Shown: positions 56,084-64,000 of the stretch, one piece after another | How positions within the stretch are numbered: the stretch's first letter is position 1 | Layout of the letters: the number at the start of each line of letters is the position of its first letter | From: Flexibacter flexilis DSM 6793 | GTDB lineage: Bacteria > Bacteroidota > Bacteroidia > Cytophagales > Flexibacteraceae | Reading direction: 5' to 3' | Length of the DNA: 64,000 bases | Assembly (NCBI RefSeq): GCF_900112255.1 | Contig: NZ_FOLE01000002.1 | Span: forward strand, 441,854-505,853 | Position numbers and translations under genes: made by a program | The notes under the pieces: model-generated | What the model saw: the letters and a program-made list of their open reading frames with translations, nothing else | The model's database searches: none | What the model was told of the DNA's origin: nothing

Positions 56084-59000
56084 TTATTTGTTTAGGAGCG
56101 AATAAATCTCTACAGCTTCTCGATTTTGGGCTTCGATGGCGTTGAGATATTCGGTTTGGATACTGATACTTTGGCTAATAAGCAGCGTCCAATCCAAGTA
56201 ATTGATTTGCCCCGCGTTGAGTTGTAAGTTTGCCAACTGCTGCAATTGTTGGGCTTTTTGCAAAGCATTTTGTTCATAAAAACCGATACTTGCTTGCGCT
56301 TTTTGGTAACGCAATTGGGCTTGTTGCCATTGGGCGTGCAGTTGTTTTTGGCTGTTTTGGTAGCTACTTTCCGCGATTTGTTGTGCAATGTTAGCGGCTG
56401 CAATGCGGCTTTTTTGTGCTTTTGCCCACAGCGGAATCCCCACGCCCAATTGCACAGATTGAAAGCGTTTGTTGTAGCCATAATATACATCATCGCTGCC
56501 TACTCCTCTGATAGTCATGTTGTTGTAGGCGAGCATAAGGCTTGGCAAAAGTTTTGCTTTTTCGAGGCGATAGGCCGTAAGGCTTTGCGTGCGTTGCTGC
56601 TGGGCAAGTTGCGCGTGTGGGTGTTGGCGCAACGCTGCCGTATCGCTCCACACCACCGACACAGGCAAAACGGCACTAGCCGCAGGGCTTGGAACAAATG
56701 CCGTGTGGGTATTGAGCAAATACCGAAATTCCGCTTGCAAAATGCCGTAGTCGTGTTGCACTTGTTGGAGTTGCAAAGCGATTTGGCCGCGTGTGAGTTC
56801 GGCACTGTTGGCTTCCAACACATTACTTTCGCCTTTGCGGAAACGTAGCGTAGATTTTTGCACAAATTCGCTCAAAATACTATCATTTTTCTGCAAAATA
56901 GTGCGCCTTTTTTCCAACAAAAGCATTTGAGAATATACCAAACGAACTTGTTTTTTTAGCTCATTTTCTTTGAGCGTAGCGACAAGCAAACTTTTTTTCA
57001 ATTCGTCAGATAAAAGCTCTTTTTGGTGCTTATAAACCGTCGGGAATTGGAAATTTTGAGCCAAAGAAATTTTATTATCTTTATAAATGCTATTGAATTG
57101 CCCATATTCAAAACTCACGTCTGTTGGGGCAATATCCACGCCCGATTTTTTGAGTTTTTCGGCGTGCGAAACCATTAATTTTTCTGTTTTTAGGCTCAAA
57201 TTATTGGCTACTGCCGAATCCAAAGCGGCTTGCAAACTAATCGGTGTTTGGGCTTGGGCAGCATTTCCGAAAAGCACCAACAAAACAATACTTACGGCTG
57301 TGGTCGTTGTGCCAGATTTGGGGTTTTCGTTTTTTTCAAAAAGCATATAAAGTGCTGGTAACACAAAGAGTGTGAGCAATGTAGCCAACATCAGGCCACC
57401 GATTACGACCGTTGCCAAAGGGCGTTGTACTTCCGCGCCTGCGCCATTGCTGACGGCCATCGGCAAAAAGCCCAACGAGGCCACAAACGCCGTCATGAGC
57501 ACAGGCCGCAAACGCAAACTTGTACCTTCCAGCACCACACGGCGTAAATCTGTCTGGCCATCGTGTCGGATTCGGTTAAACTCGGCCACCAACACAATGC
57601 CATTGAGCACGGCCACGCCAAACAGCGCGATAAAGCCCACGCCCGCCGAAATACTAAACGGCATACCACGACCCGCCAGCGCAAAAATGCCGCCAATGGC
57701 CGAAAGCGGAATCGCCGAATAAATCAACAAACCTTGTCGTACGGAGCTAAACGCAAAATATAACATCAAGAAAATTAGCAACAAAGACACTGGAACGGCA
57801 ATACTGAGGCGTTGCGTAGCTTTCTCCAAATTCTCGAAAGCACCGCCATACACAATGTAATAGCCCGACGGCAGTTTTACTTTTTTCTGAATTTTTTGTT
57901 GCAATTCCTTCACAATGCTTTGCACGTCGCGGCCTCGCACGTTGAAACCCACCACGATACGGCGTTTGGCATCTTCGCGCTGAATTTGGCTGGCGGCTTC
58001 CTTGAGCGAAACATTGGCCACCTGATACAACGGAATTTGTGAGCCGTTGGGCGTTGGGATAAGTAAATTTTGAATGTCGCTGAGGCGTTGGCGTTGGTCG
58101 CCTGCCAAACGAACCACCAAATCAAAACGGCGTTCGCCTTCAAATATCAGACCGCTACTTTGTCCCGCAAAAGCTGTGTTAATGGTTTGGTTAATGTCCT
58201 TAATATTCAAAGCGTATTCGGCGATGGCCGCGCGGTTGTACTCGATAATAATTTGCGGCGTGCCCGTAATGGTTTCGATGTACAAATCTTTCGCGCCGTC
58301 CACCGTCTCCACGATAGCACCTAACTTCTTGGAATACAAGGCCAACGTATCCAAATCTTCCCCGAAAATCTTACAAACTACGTCTTGGCGTGCGCCTGTC
58401 ATTAGCTCATTAAAACGCATCTGAACAGGAAATTGAAACCCAAAACTAACGCCCGTTACGTCTTCCAGCGAATGACTCATTTTTTCGGCCAGTTCTGGGA
58501 ATGTTTCCGCCGAAGTCCATTCACTTTTGTCTTTGAGAATAATCATCAAATCTTGCGCCTCCATCGGCATGGGGTCGGTCGGGATTTCGGCACTGCCAAT
58601 TTTGGCCACCACTTTTTCTACTTCAGGATATTTGAGCAAAATTTTAGACGCTTTTTGCGCCGCATCAAGACTTACATTGAGGTTGCTCCCTGGCAAAACA
58701 CGCGTTTCGAGTGCAAAATCGCCTTCTTCCAACGCAGGAATAAATTCGCCTCCCATTTGGCTCAAAATCAGCACGGCAATCACGAGCAAGCCCACCGACG
58801 CGGACACGATGAGTTTGGGGAACGACAAAATTTTGTCCAAAAGTTTTTGATAACGCTTTTCGATAAAGTCAATCAGATGGTCAGAGAAATTCTTTTTGTG
58901 CGCCACTTTTTTACTCAAAAACAAAGCACTCATCGTCGGGATATAGGTCAGCGACAAAATAAATGCACCCAACAACGCAAACGCAACTGTCTGAGCCATA

Positions 59001-60430
59001 GGCTTAAACATTTTACCTTCGATGCCTTCGAGCGTAAAAATCGGGAGGTACACAATCAGGATAATAATTTGCCCGAAAACCGCACTGTTCATCATGCGGC
59101 CAGCCGAGTAATTGACTTCGTCGTCCATTTGTTTTTGAGAAATGCGCGTAAGTCCCGCAAAATTGGGGCTGCTGGCCAGTCGGTGCATCACAGATTCCAC
59201 AATAATTACTGCGCCGTCCACTATCAAACCAAAATCCAACGCGCCCAAACTCATCAGGTTGCCACTCACGCCAAACAAATTCATCATAATAATCGCGAAA
59301 AGCATCGCCAACGGAATCACGGAAGCGACCAGCAAACCCGCGCGAACATTCCCCAAAAACAGCACCAACACAAACACGACAATGAGTGCGCCTTCCAACA
59401 GGTTTTTTTCTACCGTCCCGATGGCATTGTTTACCATTTTGGTACGATCAAGAAACGGCTCAATCACCACGCCTTCTGGCAAAGTTTGCTGAATTTGGGC
59501 AACGCGTTCTTTTACGTTGCGGATTACCTCGCTGCTGTTTTCGCCTTTGAGCATCATCACGACCGCACCCGCTACTTCGCCTTTGTCGTTATAAGACATT
59601 GCGCCATAGCGTGTTGCGTGTCCAAATTGTATATCGGCCACATCGCGCACGTACACGGGATTGCCTTTGTCGGTGTGCGTAACGGCAATGTTACGCAAGT
59701 CGTCCAGCGAACTGATAAGCCCTTCGCTACGAATGTAGAGCGTAGTCGAACCTTTTTCGATGTATGCACCGCCCGTATTTTCGTTATTTTTTTCTAAAGC
59801 ACTAAAAACGTCCGAAATGGTCAGGCCAAAAGATTTGAGTTTGGCAGGATTAACGGCCACTTCGTATTGTTTGAGTTTGCCGCCGAAACTGCTCACATCG
59901 GCCACGCCTTTCACGCCCAACAACTGACGGCGAACAATCCAGTCCTGAATCGTGCGCAAATCCATTTCGGAATATTTACCTTCATAGCCTTTTTTGGGGC
60001 GCACAACATACTGGTAAATTTCACCCAAACCCGTCGTTACAGGGCCAAGTTCGGGCGTGCCCACTCCTTGCGGAATTTGGACTTGTTGTAGGCGTTCGGC
60101 AATTTGCTGACGCGCCCAATAAATGTCGGTGTTGTCGTCAAAAACCACCGTAACCAGCGACAAACCGAAGCGCGAAAAGCTCCGAATTTCCAAAAGCCCC
60201 GAAATATTACTGTTGGCTTGTTCTATCGGAAATGTGATAAGTCGCTCAATATCAGGCGCACCCAACGCAGGGGCAACCGTAATAATTTGTACTTGGGTGT
60301 TGGTGATGTCGGGCACGGCATCAATGGGCAGGCGCGTAACCTCGTAGCTCCCATAGCCGATAAGCCCCAGCATAAACAACAAAATGATAAGTTTATTTCT
60401 TACCGAAAAATTGATGATGGCATTTAGCAT
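56084..60430 (-). CDS. CusA/CzcA heavy-metal RND pump fused to TolC-type outer-membrane channel
   Basis: 1448 residues, longer than the ~1040 of a normal CusA. Residues ~1-1030 are an HME-RND pump: PDITNTQVQIIT near the N terminus, the metal-type proton relay DFGLIVDGAVIIVESVMHR, and twelve membrane helices. At ~1042-1062 a second signal-like hydrophobic stretch (AVSIVLLVLFGNAAQAQTP) starts a TolC-family domain (LQAALDSAVANNLSLKTEKL and QQLANLQLNAGQINYLDWTLL) running to the C terminus. With the adaptor downstream this one gene supplies two of the three components. Such fusions occur in other Bacteroidota. Substrate likely Cu/Ag or Co/Zn/Cd. Confidence 0.95.
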   Translation of the reverse strand: MLNAIINFSVRNKLIILLFMLGLIGYGSYEVTRLPIDAVPDITNTQVQIITVAPALGAPDIERLITFPIEQANSNISGLLEIRSFSRFGLSLVTVVFDDNTDIYWARQQIAERLQQVQIPQGVGTPELGPVTTGLGEIYQYVVRPKKGYEGKYSEMDLRTIQDWIVRRQLLGVKGVADVSSFGGKLKQYEVAVNPAKLKSFGLTISDVFSALEKNNENTGGAYIEKGSTTLYIRSEGLISSLDDLRNIAVTHTDKGNPVYVRDVADIQFGHATRYGAMSYNDKGEVAGAVVMMLKGENSSEVIRNVKERVAQIQQTLPEGVVIEPFLDRTKMVNNAIGTVEKNLLEGALIVVFVLVLFLGNVRAGLLVASVIPLAMLFAIIMMNLFGVSGNLMSLGALDFGLIVDGAVIIVESVMHRLASSPNFAGLTRISQKQMDDEVNYSAGRMMNSAVFGQIIILIVYLPIFTLEGIEGKMFKPMAQTVAFALLGAFILSLTYIPTMSALFLSKKVAHKKNFSDHLIDFIEKRYQKLLDKILSFPKLIVSASVGLLVIAVLILSQMGGEFIPALEEGDFALETRVLPGSNLNVSLDAAQKASKILLKYPEVEKVVAKIGSAEIPTDPMPMEAQDLMIILKDKSEWTSAETFPELAEKMSHSLEDVTGVSFGFQFPVQMRFNELMTGARQDVVCKIFGEDLDTLALYSKKLGAIVETVDGAKDLYIETITGTPQIIIEYNRAAIAEYALNIKDINQTINTAFAGQSSGLIFEGERRFDLVVRLAGDQRQRLSDIQNLLIPTPNGSQIPLYQVANVSLKEAASQIQREDAKRRIVVGFNVRGRDVQSIVKELQQKIQKKVKLPSGYYIVYGGAFENLEKATQRLSIAVPVSLLLIFLMLYFAFSSVRQGLLIYSAIPLSAIGGIFALAGRGMPFSISAGVGFIALFGVAVLNGIVLVAEFNRIRHDGQTDLRRVVLEGTSLRLRPVLMTAFVASLGFLPMAVSNGAGAEVQRPLATVVIGGLMLATLLTLFVLPALYMLFEKNENPKSGTTTTAVSIVLLVLFGNAAQAQTPISLQAALDSAVANNLSLKTEKLMVSHAEKLKKSGVDIAPTDVSFEYGQFNSIYKDNKISLAQNFQFPTVYKHQKELLSDELKKSLLVATLKENELKKQVRLVYSQMLLLEKRRTILQKNDSILSEFVQKSTLRFRKGESNVLEANSAELTRGQIALQLQQVQHDYGILQAEFRYLLNTHTAFVPSPAASAVLPVSVVWSDTAALRQHPHAQLAQQQRTQSLTAYRLEKAKLLPSLMLAYNNMTIRGVGSDDVYYGYNKRFQSVQLGVGIPLWAKAQKSRIAAANIAQQIAESSYQNSQKQLHAQWQQAQLRYQKAQASIGFYEQNALQKAQQLQQLANLQLNAGQINYLDWTLLISQSISIQTEYLNAIEAQNREAVEIYSLLNK

Positions 60431-62003: not shown

Positions 62004-64000
62004 CTACTTATCCACTACATAAAACTCCGCGCGGCGGTTCATTTTACGCCCGTAAGCCGTCGTATTTGGCATGAGCGGGAAGGCTTCCCCTTTACCTTCG
62101 GGCATCACGATCGTGGTTTTTACACCGCGTTTGGTGAGGTATTCTTTGGCGTTTTTCGCACGTTTTTTGGAAAGTTCCAAGTTGTAATCGTCGTTACCGA
62201 AACTATCACTATGCGCCAAAATATACAGACGTTTTTCGGGGTGCTGCTTTAGGTGCGTGGCCAAATGATCTAAGAATTTGTAACCATCTACCCGAATATT
62301 GGTTTGGTTGGCATCAAAAAACACGCGTCCCATCATGGCGGGTTCGCCGTGATAGTGACCAGCCCGTAACTCGCCATCGCTCAATACCAATTTGGTCGCT
62401 GTGCGGGTATTGATGATGTTGTCCATAGCAGCTTTGGCTTCTGGTGTCAGGTTTTTATAATACAAATCATCGCCTTTCTTGAAATGTGCTTTATCGCCTT
62501 CATAAACATCTTTGCCCAAACGCTCCTGCACCATGCGGTTAAGTCGTTCCTTTTCCTCTGGCGAAAGCGAGTAATAATAATTTTTGTCTTTTTCGAGCAA
62601 ACCAGCCGTGAGGTCTTCGCCTTTCTTGGCCGTAGCCTTGCGGCGAGCCGCTACAATCGCATCTATACTTGCTTTCTGTTCGGGAGAAAGATTTTTGTAA
62701 AACTGCTCGTCTTCTTCTTTCAGCGCAGGGTCGCGGCTATAGACATTGTGTCCCAACAAAGACTCAATGATGCGGTCTATGCGTTTGCGGTCTTCGGCTT
62801 CGAGTTGCTGATAATAAAACTTGTCTTTCTCGGAAAGTGCCAAATCATCCACCACCGTTTTCTTGCCCGACCTGCGATGCGCAATCATTTTGTTAATGGC
62901 CGTTTTGCTGCTGTAAGGCAAGTTTTTGTAATACAAATCATCTTCTTTTTTAAGCAACTCATCATTGCCATACACGCCATGCCCCAAACGCGCCTCAATG
63001 ATGCGGTCTATGCGTGCTTTTTCTTCGGCAGAAAGTCCGCGATAATTAAAATCGTTTTTCTCTTTGAGTTGCAAATCATCGGCGGCTCGCATATTGGCCA
63101 AACGATTGGCTACGCTTCTTTCCAGCTCTTCTTTTGCCTCAGCATCAAGGTTTTGATAATAGAAATTATCTTTTTCTTTTAACTTCAAATCATCGTCGTG
63201 GGCATTACGTTTGGCCATTGCGTCCACGATACGCGCCACTTGGTCGCGTTCTTCGGGAGCCATTTTGCGATAAGTTACGCGGTCTTTCGCCTTAATTTTG
63301 GTGTCTTCATTTTTGTATTTGCCCGCCAAACGACTTTCGATAAGCTTGTCCACCAACTCGCGTATATTCGGTGGCAAATTCTGATATACCAACTCATCTT
63401 CTTTGAGCAAAGCATCATTATCTCCATAGAAATATTTGCCTGCACGTGCTGCCGCCCAACGCTCCACAGCCAAACGTTGTTCGGTCGGAAGCTCTTGATA
63501 ATGAAGCAAATCAGCATTAAGTAAATTAATTGTACCATCGTCGTACACCAACGTCATCAGACGCATAGCGGCCATGCGTTCGATGCGGTTCTTTTCACTT
63601 TGCGGCAATTTTGTGTAATAATCTTTTTCCTTCTCTCTCAAATTTACGTCTTTCTGATACTGCACATTTGAGATACGAGCCGCAATGATTCTATCCACGC
63701 TGGCGCGTTCTTCGGGCGAAAGTTTATCATAATACAACTTGTCTTTTAGCTTCAAGGTTGGGTCTTTGGCGTAGGCCTCTTCCATGAGCTTGAAGGCAAT
63801 AATACGGTCTATTTTATTTCTTTCCTCTAAAGTCAAATTGCTATAAAAACGGTCGTCTTGCTCTTTGAGAGCAGGCGTAAGCGCGTAGATTTTATCGCCG
63901 TTGCGAGATTTGGCCATTCGATCCACCGCATTGCGAACATCTGCGGGCAAGTTTTTGTAAAATGCCTCGTCTTCGGCCTGCAACGATGGGTCGTGTATGT
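62004..64000 (-). CDS. OmpA-family protein with 14 tandem 38-residue repeats (5' end outside window)
   Basis: The frame is open through the right edge, so the N terminus is missing; 665 residues are visible. About 530 of these form at least 14 units of ~38 residues with the pattern L-x3-D-x2-[YF]-Y-x2-L-x2-E-x4-[IV]-[DE]-R-[IM]-[IV]-x3-R, likely two short helices per unit (for example LKEKDNFYYQNLDAEAKEEL). The C-terminal ~110 residues are an OmpA peptidoglycan-binding domain (GRVFFDANQTNIRVDGY, ILAHSDSFGNDDYNLELSKK, GRKMNRRAEFYVVDK). Predicted to be envelope-anchored and to bind peptidoglycan. I do not recognise the repeat. Confidence 0.88.
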   Translation of the reverse strand, partial: IHDPSLQAEDEAFYKNLPADVRNAVDRMAKSRNGDKIYALTPALKEQDDRFYSNLTLEERNKIDRIIAFKLMEEAYAKDPTLKLKDKLYYDKLSPEERASVDRIIAARISNVQYQKDVNLREKEKDYYTKLPQSEKNRIERMAAMRLMTLVYDDGTINLLNADLLHYQELPTEQRLAVERWAAARAGKYFYGDNDALLKEDELVYQNLPPNIRELVDKLIESRLAGKYKNEDTKIKAKDRVTYRKMAPEERDQVARIVDAMAKRNAHDDDLKLKEKDNFYYQNLDAEAKEELERSVANRLANMRAADDLQLKEKNDFNYRGLSAEEKARIDRIIEARLGHGVYGNDELLKKEDDLYYKNLPYSSKTAINKMIAHRRSGKKTVVDDLALSEKDKFYYQQLEAEDRKRIDRIIESLLGHNVYSRDPALKEEDEQFYKNLSPEQKASIDAIVAARRKATAKKGEDLTAGLLEKDKNYYYSLSPEEKERLNRMVQERLGKDVYEGDKAHFKKGDDLYYKNLTPEAKAAMDNIINTRTATKLVLSDGELRAGHYHGEPAMMGRVFFDANQTNIRVDGYKFLDHLATHLKQHPEKRLYILAHSDSFGNDDYNLELSKKRAKNAKEYLTKRGVKTTIVMPEGKGEAFPLMPNTTAYGRKMNRRAEFYVVDK
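62390..63986 (-). repeat. 114-bp protein-coding tandem repeat, at least 14 units
   Basis: Units are diverged at DNA level but keep a 38-codon period (DNA ~114 bp). Conserved positions are mostly Leu, Asp, Tyr, Glu, Ile and Arg. Most units begin LKEKD or a variant; the last one (FKKGDDLYYKNLTPEAKAAM) precedes the OmpA domain. Confidence 0.85.

Follow-up and report, generated by a model that had tools for sequence, protein, structure and literature searches.

PorE of P. gingivalis is a lipoprotein that has been called essential for the type IX secretion system (T9SS) (PMC7192894). It is described as binding PorP, which in turn binds the type B protein PG1035, and the same work postulates that type B proteins which do not move are held to the wall by PorP-PorE-like complexes (Gorasia et al., PMC9143113). 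A type B protein of F. johnsoniae that appears static is likewise described as being encoded with a PorE homologue (PMC12618676). For SprF, a Cys-Xaa-Cys motif in the C-terminal tail has been reported whose cysteines matter for gliding, and a disulfide is reported to form between SprF and GldK (PMC12635249). A further OmpA family protein, CHU_0125 of Cytophaga hutchinsonii, has a reported role in outer membrane integrity (PMC5891637).

Here we describe a PorE-like protein that adds an undescribed repeat domain to the anchors of type IX secretion, and suggests a way for bacteria to adjust how far a wall-tethered surface adhesin reaches. Examination of the carriers that such anchors accompany points to a tail-cysteine pattern that would give a cheap, sequence-based prediction of whether type B adhesins are track-driven or fixed. 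This question was raised by two papers of 2025, one on SprF (PMC12635249) and one on shuttle proteins (PMC12618676).

A PorE-like protein and its gene neighbourhood

The window, by which we mean the whole 64,000-nt stretch that was analysed (G000:C2:441854-505853), comes from the 4.25 Mb assembly of Flexibacter flexilis DSM 6793, contig NZ_FOLE01000002.1. A minus-strand frame at 62004-63998 is the 3' part of the repeat-protein gene, which crosses the right edge of the window; because the gene is cut there, neither the PorE-like head of the protein nor the T9SS gene set can be seen within the window. Recovered from the host assembly, the whole gene has a TTG start and encodes 1292 aa (Table 1). 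The protein begins with a signal peptide-like stretch that by eye has no clear lipobox, followed by a TPR-like part (residues 45-137), a PD40 propeller (about 180-450), 18 repeat units (478-1168) and an OmpA domain (1188-1283). Several Pfam TPR models match residues 45-137, all below cut-off (TPR_14 at 23.1 vs 23.5), and the WD40-like propeller reaches 28.6 bits with PD40 (cut-off 20.9). The OmpA domain, which is presumed from its family to bind the cell wall peptidoglycan, scores 60.5-62.9 bits with PF00691 over the whole protein and the window part (cut-off 27.2). The earlier note on this DNA had joined the repeats to an OmpA domain and set both within positions 62390-64000; the junction is real, but the domain itself lies just to the left of that interval, at about 62034-62321.

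Table 1. Features of the repeat-protein gene inside the window (window positions)
Feature	Position	Strand	Remarks
3' part of the PorE-like protein gene	62004..64000	-	residues 629 to end; whole gene G000:C2:503857-507735, L016:7858-11736
14 of the 18 two-helix units (R5-R18, 37-40 aa each)	62379..63992	-	HMM matches at 14 positions, spacing 38-41; R1-R4 lie past the right edge
Link of 19 residues from last unit to OmpA	62322..62378	-	too short for a CRD (carboxypeptidase-regulatory-like domain)
OmpA C-terminal-like domain (PF00691), presumed peptidoglycan binding	62034..62321	-	62.9 bits, cut-off 27.2

A PD40 propeller and an OmpA domain, preceded by a TPR-like part (here below cut-off), make up the combination described for PorE of P. 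gingivalis and the PorE-like proteins of F. johnsoniae, whose genes likewise follow genes for a PorP/SprF family protein and a T9SS substrate (PMC9143113, PMC12618676). The repeat protein departs from PorE in having 18 two-helix units where PorE has a CRD, in its length (1292 aa against the 648 positions of the PorE model), and in showing no lipobox by eye where PorE is a lipoprotein (PMC7192894). No Pfam row for CarboxypepD_reg was returned for the repeat protein at E up to 1. The curated T9SS_PorE model (NF052230) covers residues 20-447 and the OmpA end with 211.7 bits against a cut-off of 600. The best NCBIfam match, also below its cut-off, is the CHU_0125_OmpA family (NF053607; 226.2 bits vs 620), whose best stretch spans residues 46-450, with the OmpA end matched as well; to this family the repeat protein adds the array.

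On the same strand, a CHU_C substrate gene, a PorP/SprF gene and the repeat-protein gene follow one another with gaps of 3 and 40 bases. The PorP/SprF gene (L016:11777-12862), which ends 40 bases upstream of the repeat-protein gene, is recognised by TIGR03519 with 206 bits (cut-off 90.55). The substrate gene product is secreted and carries a CHU_C type IX signal (PF13585, 36.1 bits, cut-off 27) together with PKD/Ig-like domains. Its type B label rests on the Pfam CHU_C match, because the NCBIfam type B tail model TIGR04131 returned no row for it at E up to 0.1; on the substrate-like genes of relatives, the same model gave sub-threshold rows in 4 of 6 cases. SprA and GldK are both over cut-off in the F. 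flexilis genome, which encodes nine PorP/SprF proteins, and a different one of these adjoins GldK on another contig. Published accounts of type B adhesins that are static and anchored to the wall describe the same arrangement (PMC9143113, PMC12618676), and we read the repeat protein as such an anchor.

Two of the nine PorP/SprF proteins are fused to OmpA in one frame (L103:3356-5296 and L106:2985-4649). Like the locus described here, the fusions link a carrier barrel of the outer membrane with an OmpA domain, but they do so within one polypeptide, of 646 and 554 aa, respectively, which leaves no length for a propeller and array as well. With L152, L161 and L201 from other genomes, such fusions make up 5 of the 108 PorP proteins classed below, and would join carrier and wall anchor directly. 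Elsewhere in the window (56084-60430), a 1448-aa frame reads by eye as a single protein made up of a CusA-like RND heavy-metal efflux pump and a TolC-like outer membrane factor.

The 38-residue repeat unit

At least 14 copies of a repeat of about 38 residues had been proposed from the window, and we find 14 units there and 18 consecutive units, of 37-40 aa each, in the whole gene. At lag 38 the BLOSUM62 score averages 0.796, whereas the maximum in 2000 shuffles over lags 20-60 is -0.387; the period of about 38 residues is far beyond chance. The unit consensus, DEKLKEEDKFYYEKLSPEEKNRIDRIIAARLAAK, has 34 modelled positions and includes the Asp, Tyr-Tyr, Glu and Asp-Arg-Ile-Ile positions that had been named as conserved, with single units departing from it. 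Mean identity among the F. flexilis units is 0.30, the same as between these units and those of a relative, L025 (0.30). As the units resemble those of L025 as much as they resemble each other and yet keep the pattern, the array looks old rather than recently duplicated. Within L025 and L061 themselves, unit identity is higher (0.41 and 0.39, vs 0.30 and 0.29 to the window-protein units), which would be a sign of some expansion or homogenisation of units in these two arrays.

A two-helix unit had also been proposed, and AlphaFold agrees: given four units (R13-R16, 7-row alignment), it predicts two short helices per unit, of 9-12 and 14-24 residues. This model has a pLDDT of 75.2 and a pTM of 0.44, with its ends and middle linker below pLDDT 50, and a second job of 664 residues with 3 rows gave a poor model (pLDDT 56.1, pTM 0.28). 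The unit is thus predicted to be two-helical, with the packing between units poorly determined, and at a pTM of 0.44 for four units and a pLDDT of 56 for 664 residues the array may or may not form a rod. Fold comparison says little for the same reason, the pTM of the 4-unit query being 0.44: Foldseek returned nothing at E <=0.001 (best E 2.2), and VIA-align gave a best Z of 4.1 and no convincing match.

TPR, Sel1, HEAT and similar repeats consist of tandem two-helix units of roughly similar length. The array is like them in this respect and differs in its consensus; with E allowed up to 1, Pfam gave no row for any of these families over residues 478-1168 or over the part inside the window, and none of TPR, Sel1 and HEAT is among the best 25 of the 27 families matched by 15 two-unit blocks. 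Profile and sequence scans against Pfam, NCBIfam (best 25 of 35 and best 25 of 33 rows), PHROGs and PDB sequences (best 60 of 62 rows in one search) gave only short, weak or sub-threshold matches of the array, and no credible match to a described family, so the unit remains as unrecognised as it had first appeared. The sole Pfam match over cut-off within the array is a WHIM1 fragment (PF15612) in the window part, at 20.5 bits against 19.1, which spans 15 residues where the profile has 46 positions; in the whole protein its score drops to 17.1, under the cut-off. LTXXQ (Spy/CpxP) reached 16.5 bits against a cut-off of 24.3. A DUF7173 match that is a short stub only (the WHIM1 and DUF7173 stubs are 15-21 residues long), the PHROG matches to head scaffolding (8.1e-5) and an Arc-like repressor (8.9e-5, 23 residues), and HlyD (0.037 and 0.12) were judged to reflect composition or short motifs. 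In one open library, neither a paper on the array nor a phrase naming a 38-residue repeat was found among the matches listed. Within these searches the repeat unit is undescribed, and the anchor protein that carries it is an unusual version of a known type, not a new system.

Relatives of the array and its proposed role

Arrays of this kind are rare. No second array was found in the F. flexilis genome at E up to 10, and the nearest paralogue there (L074, a separate gene, 45% identity over residues 66-488) has LysM domains and, at the place of the 19-residue link, a CRD, but no array. An array query matched 5 of 98 genomes, F. flexilis included. The A1 profile, built from two-unit blocks of close units, matched 10 of 390 genomes of the order and, in a phylum sample of 395, F. 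flexilis only; the wider A6 profile matched 11 of the 390 and, in the phylum sample, F. flexilis and two others. These two (G550 and G725) are marginal, with E about 9e-4 in frames of 348 and 130 aa, near chance for 395 genomes. All matches in order genomes fall within three families of the order, and the named records among them are Xanthocytophaga flavus YF14B1 and MAGs labelled Cytophagales, Cyclobacteriaceae and Flammeovirgaceae. The 11 genomes include G087 (E 3.1e-4, a 174-aa frame); arrays were read in the other ten, and in 10 of 10 they belong to PorE-like proteins. That homologues might track gliding Bacteroidota finds no support in the genome data, in which arrays occur in 11 of 390 order genomes.

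Across the 13 array loci that were read (the F. flexilis locus L016, L025-L028, L059-L064, L067 and L068), a TPR/PD40 model built from nine of these proteins matches the array gene in 12, the exception being the fragment L059. An OmpA model also matches in 12, the exception being L060, which is cut by a contig end; in L068 the OmpA part lies in a second frame. Pfam places OmpA over cut-off in all eight array proteins scanned and PD40 in seven (L064 has no PD40 row). Only L062 has a CRD over cut-off between its array and OmpA. The CRD matches at that place in L061, L067 and L028 stay below cut-off, and CarboxypepD_reg gave no row at E up to 0.001 in L025, L027 or L064. The number of detected units is 18, 12-13, 7, 9, 5, 6 or 3-4, the last in L028. 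In 9 of the 13 loci the array gene has a PorP/SprF gene as a neighbour, which in L062 faces it on the other strand, and none was detected in the sequence covered at L028 (17 kb), L063 (18 kb), L068 (10 kb) or the fragment L059 (5.5 kb). Scanned with Pfam, 7 of 9 neighbours of relatives' array genes are PorP/SprF, those scanned for L028 and L063 being the two that are not. Among the neighbours inspected by eye, none recurs as a rule except the substrate-like and PorP genes. The 1685-aa array protein at L062:3426-8483 has blocks of units and CRD domains that alternate twice, followed by OmpA and two LysM domains. L059 and L060 are from two contigs of G100, a genome with 7% contamination; the array gene portions at the ends of these contigs are very similar, and may be two copies or variants of the assembly.

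We consider it probable that the repeat protein is a PorE-like periplasmic anchor, which ties an outer-membrane type B adhesin complex to the wall with the array as a spacer. The PorP-PorE complex and the binding of peptidoglycan are reported for other species; that this protein works alike, and that its array is a spacer, is what we infer. In this reading, the PorP/SprF-family barrel encoded just upstream would be gripped on its periplasmic side by the TPR-like part and PD40 propeller, and would itself carry the secreted T9SS substrate whose gene adjoins its own. The OmpA domain would bind peptidoglycan, and the 18 units, in place of a CRD, would serve as an extended helical spacer or tether of variable length. 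Most likely the array separates the PorP-holding head from the wall-holding tail, and the variation in unit number among relatives fits a spacer. The earlier note's proposal of a spacer or scaffold across the periplasm is plausible. A bolder proposal, which we put forward tentatively and with some doubt, is that the unit founds a new helical repeat family, which would give type B adhesin complexes anchored to the wall a tether or shock absorber of adjustable length, and that, more broadly, PorP/SprF carriers have two fates written in their gene context and C-terminal tail: a Cys tail that forms a disulfide to the moving GldK track, or a Cys-free tail with a PorE-like or fused OmpA anchor that keeps the carrier fixed.

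The array could instead be a binding scaffold with charged hairpins on which peptidoglycan, the secreted substrate or other periplasmic proteins dock, in the manner of TPR arrays. Conservation extends to polar as well as core positions (R26 and D47 are the invariant columns in the 15 two-unit blocks of alignment A1), the composition is strongly charged (K 10.6%, D 9.4%, E 9.3%, R 7.5%), and an LSPEEKxRIDR-like motif is retained in many units of distant relatives, all of which would suit a docking surface. We nevertheless think a scaffold unlikely, as a detected unit number ranging from 3-4 to 18 suits length better than a defined binding surface, and the neighbourhoods, read by eye, offer no recurrent partner besides the substrate-like and PorP genes. 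The essential role claimed for P. gingivalis PorE (PMC7192894) would be in keeping with the repeat protein being a core part of the T9SS or gliding machine, in which the array ties the PorK/N ring or the gliding track to the wall. However, it is a different PorP, on another contig, that lies beside GldK, and the repeat gene sits with a substrate gene and PorP of its own. The array is also without a match in 379 of 390 order genomes, although the T9SS is common in Bacteroidota, and a core role is accordingly improbable. Finally, a neutral, expandable linker under low constraint and with no specific function would account for varying unit numbers and linker lengths, for the pLDDT below 50 at the ends and middle linker of the 4-unit model, and for the greater likeness of units within L025 and L061. 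It is very improbable in view of the age of the window-protein array, whose units are about 30% identical, as they are to those of L025, yet have retained their pattern over long times.

Tail cysteines of PorP/SprF carriers

If carriers linked to a PorE-like anchor are static, they should lack the tail cysteines through which SprF is joined to GldK. The idea was suggested by the nine F. flexilis PorPs and the tails of the array partners, so the absence of a tail Cys from all 9 PorPs adjoining array genes (two of them near-identical and one from the F. flexilis locus) does not test it independently. Counted from the end, residue four is Ser or Thr in 7 of these 9 partners; all 3 Cys-tailed PorPs of F. 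flexilis have their Cys there.

For a wider sample, PorP/SprF was found in 14 of 61 phylum genomes searched, and the PorP rows from these were fetched with their surroundings (loci L099-L106 and L107-L205). We classed 108 of 109 rows, the one dropped being a fragment with a stop at 62 bits, below cut-off. Any Cys in the last 15 residues counted as a tail Cys, the published SprF motif being a Cys-Xaa-Cys pair, and PorE-like neighbours were called with the TPR/PD40 model built from nine array proteins. A tail Cys is present in 4 of 32 PorPs with a downstream PorE-like gene and in 40 of 71 without one (Fisher p 2.9e-5, a statistic that ignores kinship), and in none of the five PorP-OmpA fusions. 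Of 20000 shuffles within genomes, 7 reach the observed count. The difference persists when F. flexilis is excluded (4/30 vs 37/66, p 1.1e-4), and when four PorPs with less than 1.9 kb downstream, near contig ends, are excluded as well (4/30 vs 36/63, p 5e-5). The rule is loose, because 31 of the 71 PorPs without a PorE-like neighbour also lack a tail Cys and 4 of the 32 with a neighbour have one. A tail Cys and a downstream PorE-like gene tend to exclude each other, a possible rule for telling track-driven from fixed type B adhesins by sequence.

Within the limits of this test, the PorP complex encoded beside the repeat gene would fall in the static class. The earlier note had offered a motility-related part as one role for the array; array partners and PorE-adjoining PorPs are poor in tail Cys, a feature expected of static rather than track-driven carriers, and a motility role for the repeat protein is therefore unlikely. 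Of the two 2025 papers, PMC12635249 does not mention PorE, and "cystein" occurs in PMC12618676 only within the reference list. Among the sampled loci, the PorP/SprF match sits inside a very long frame in L170, L183 and L187 (970-1527 aa).
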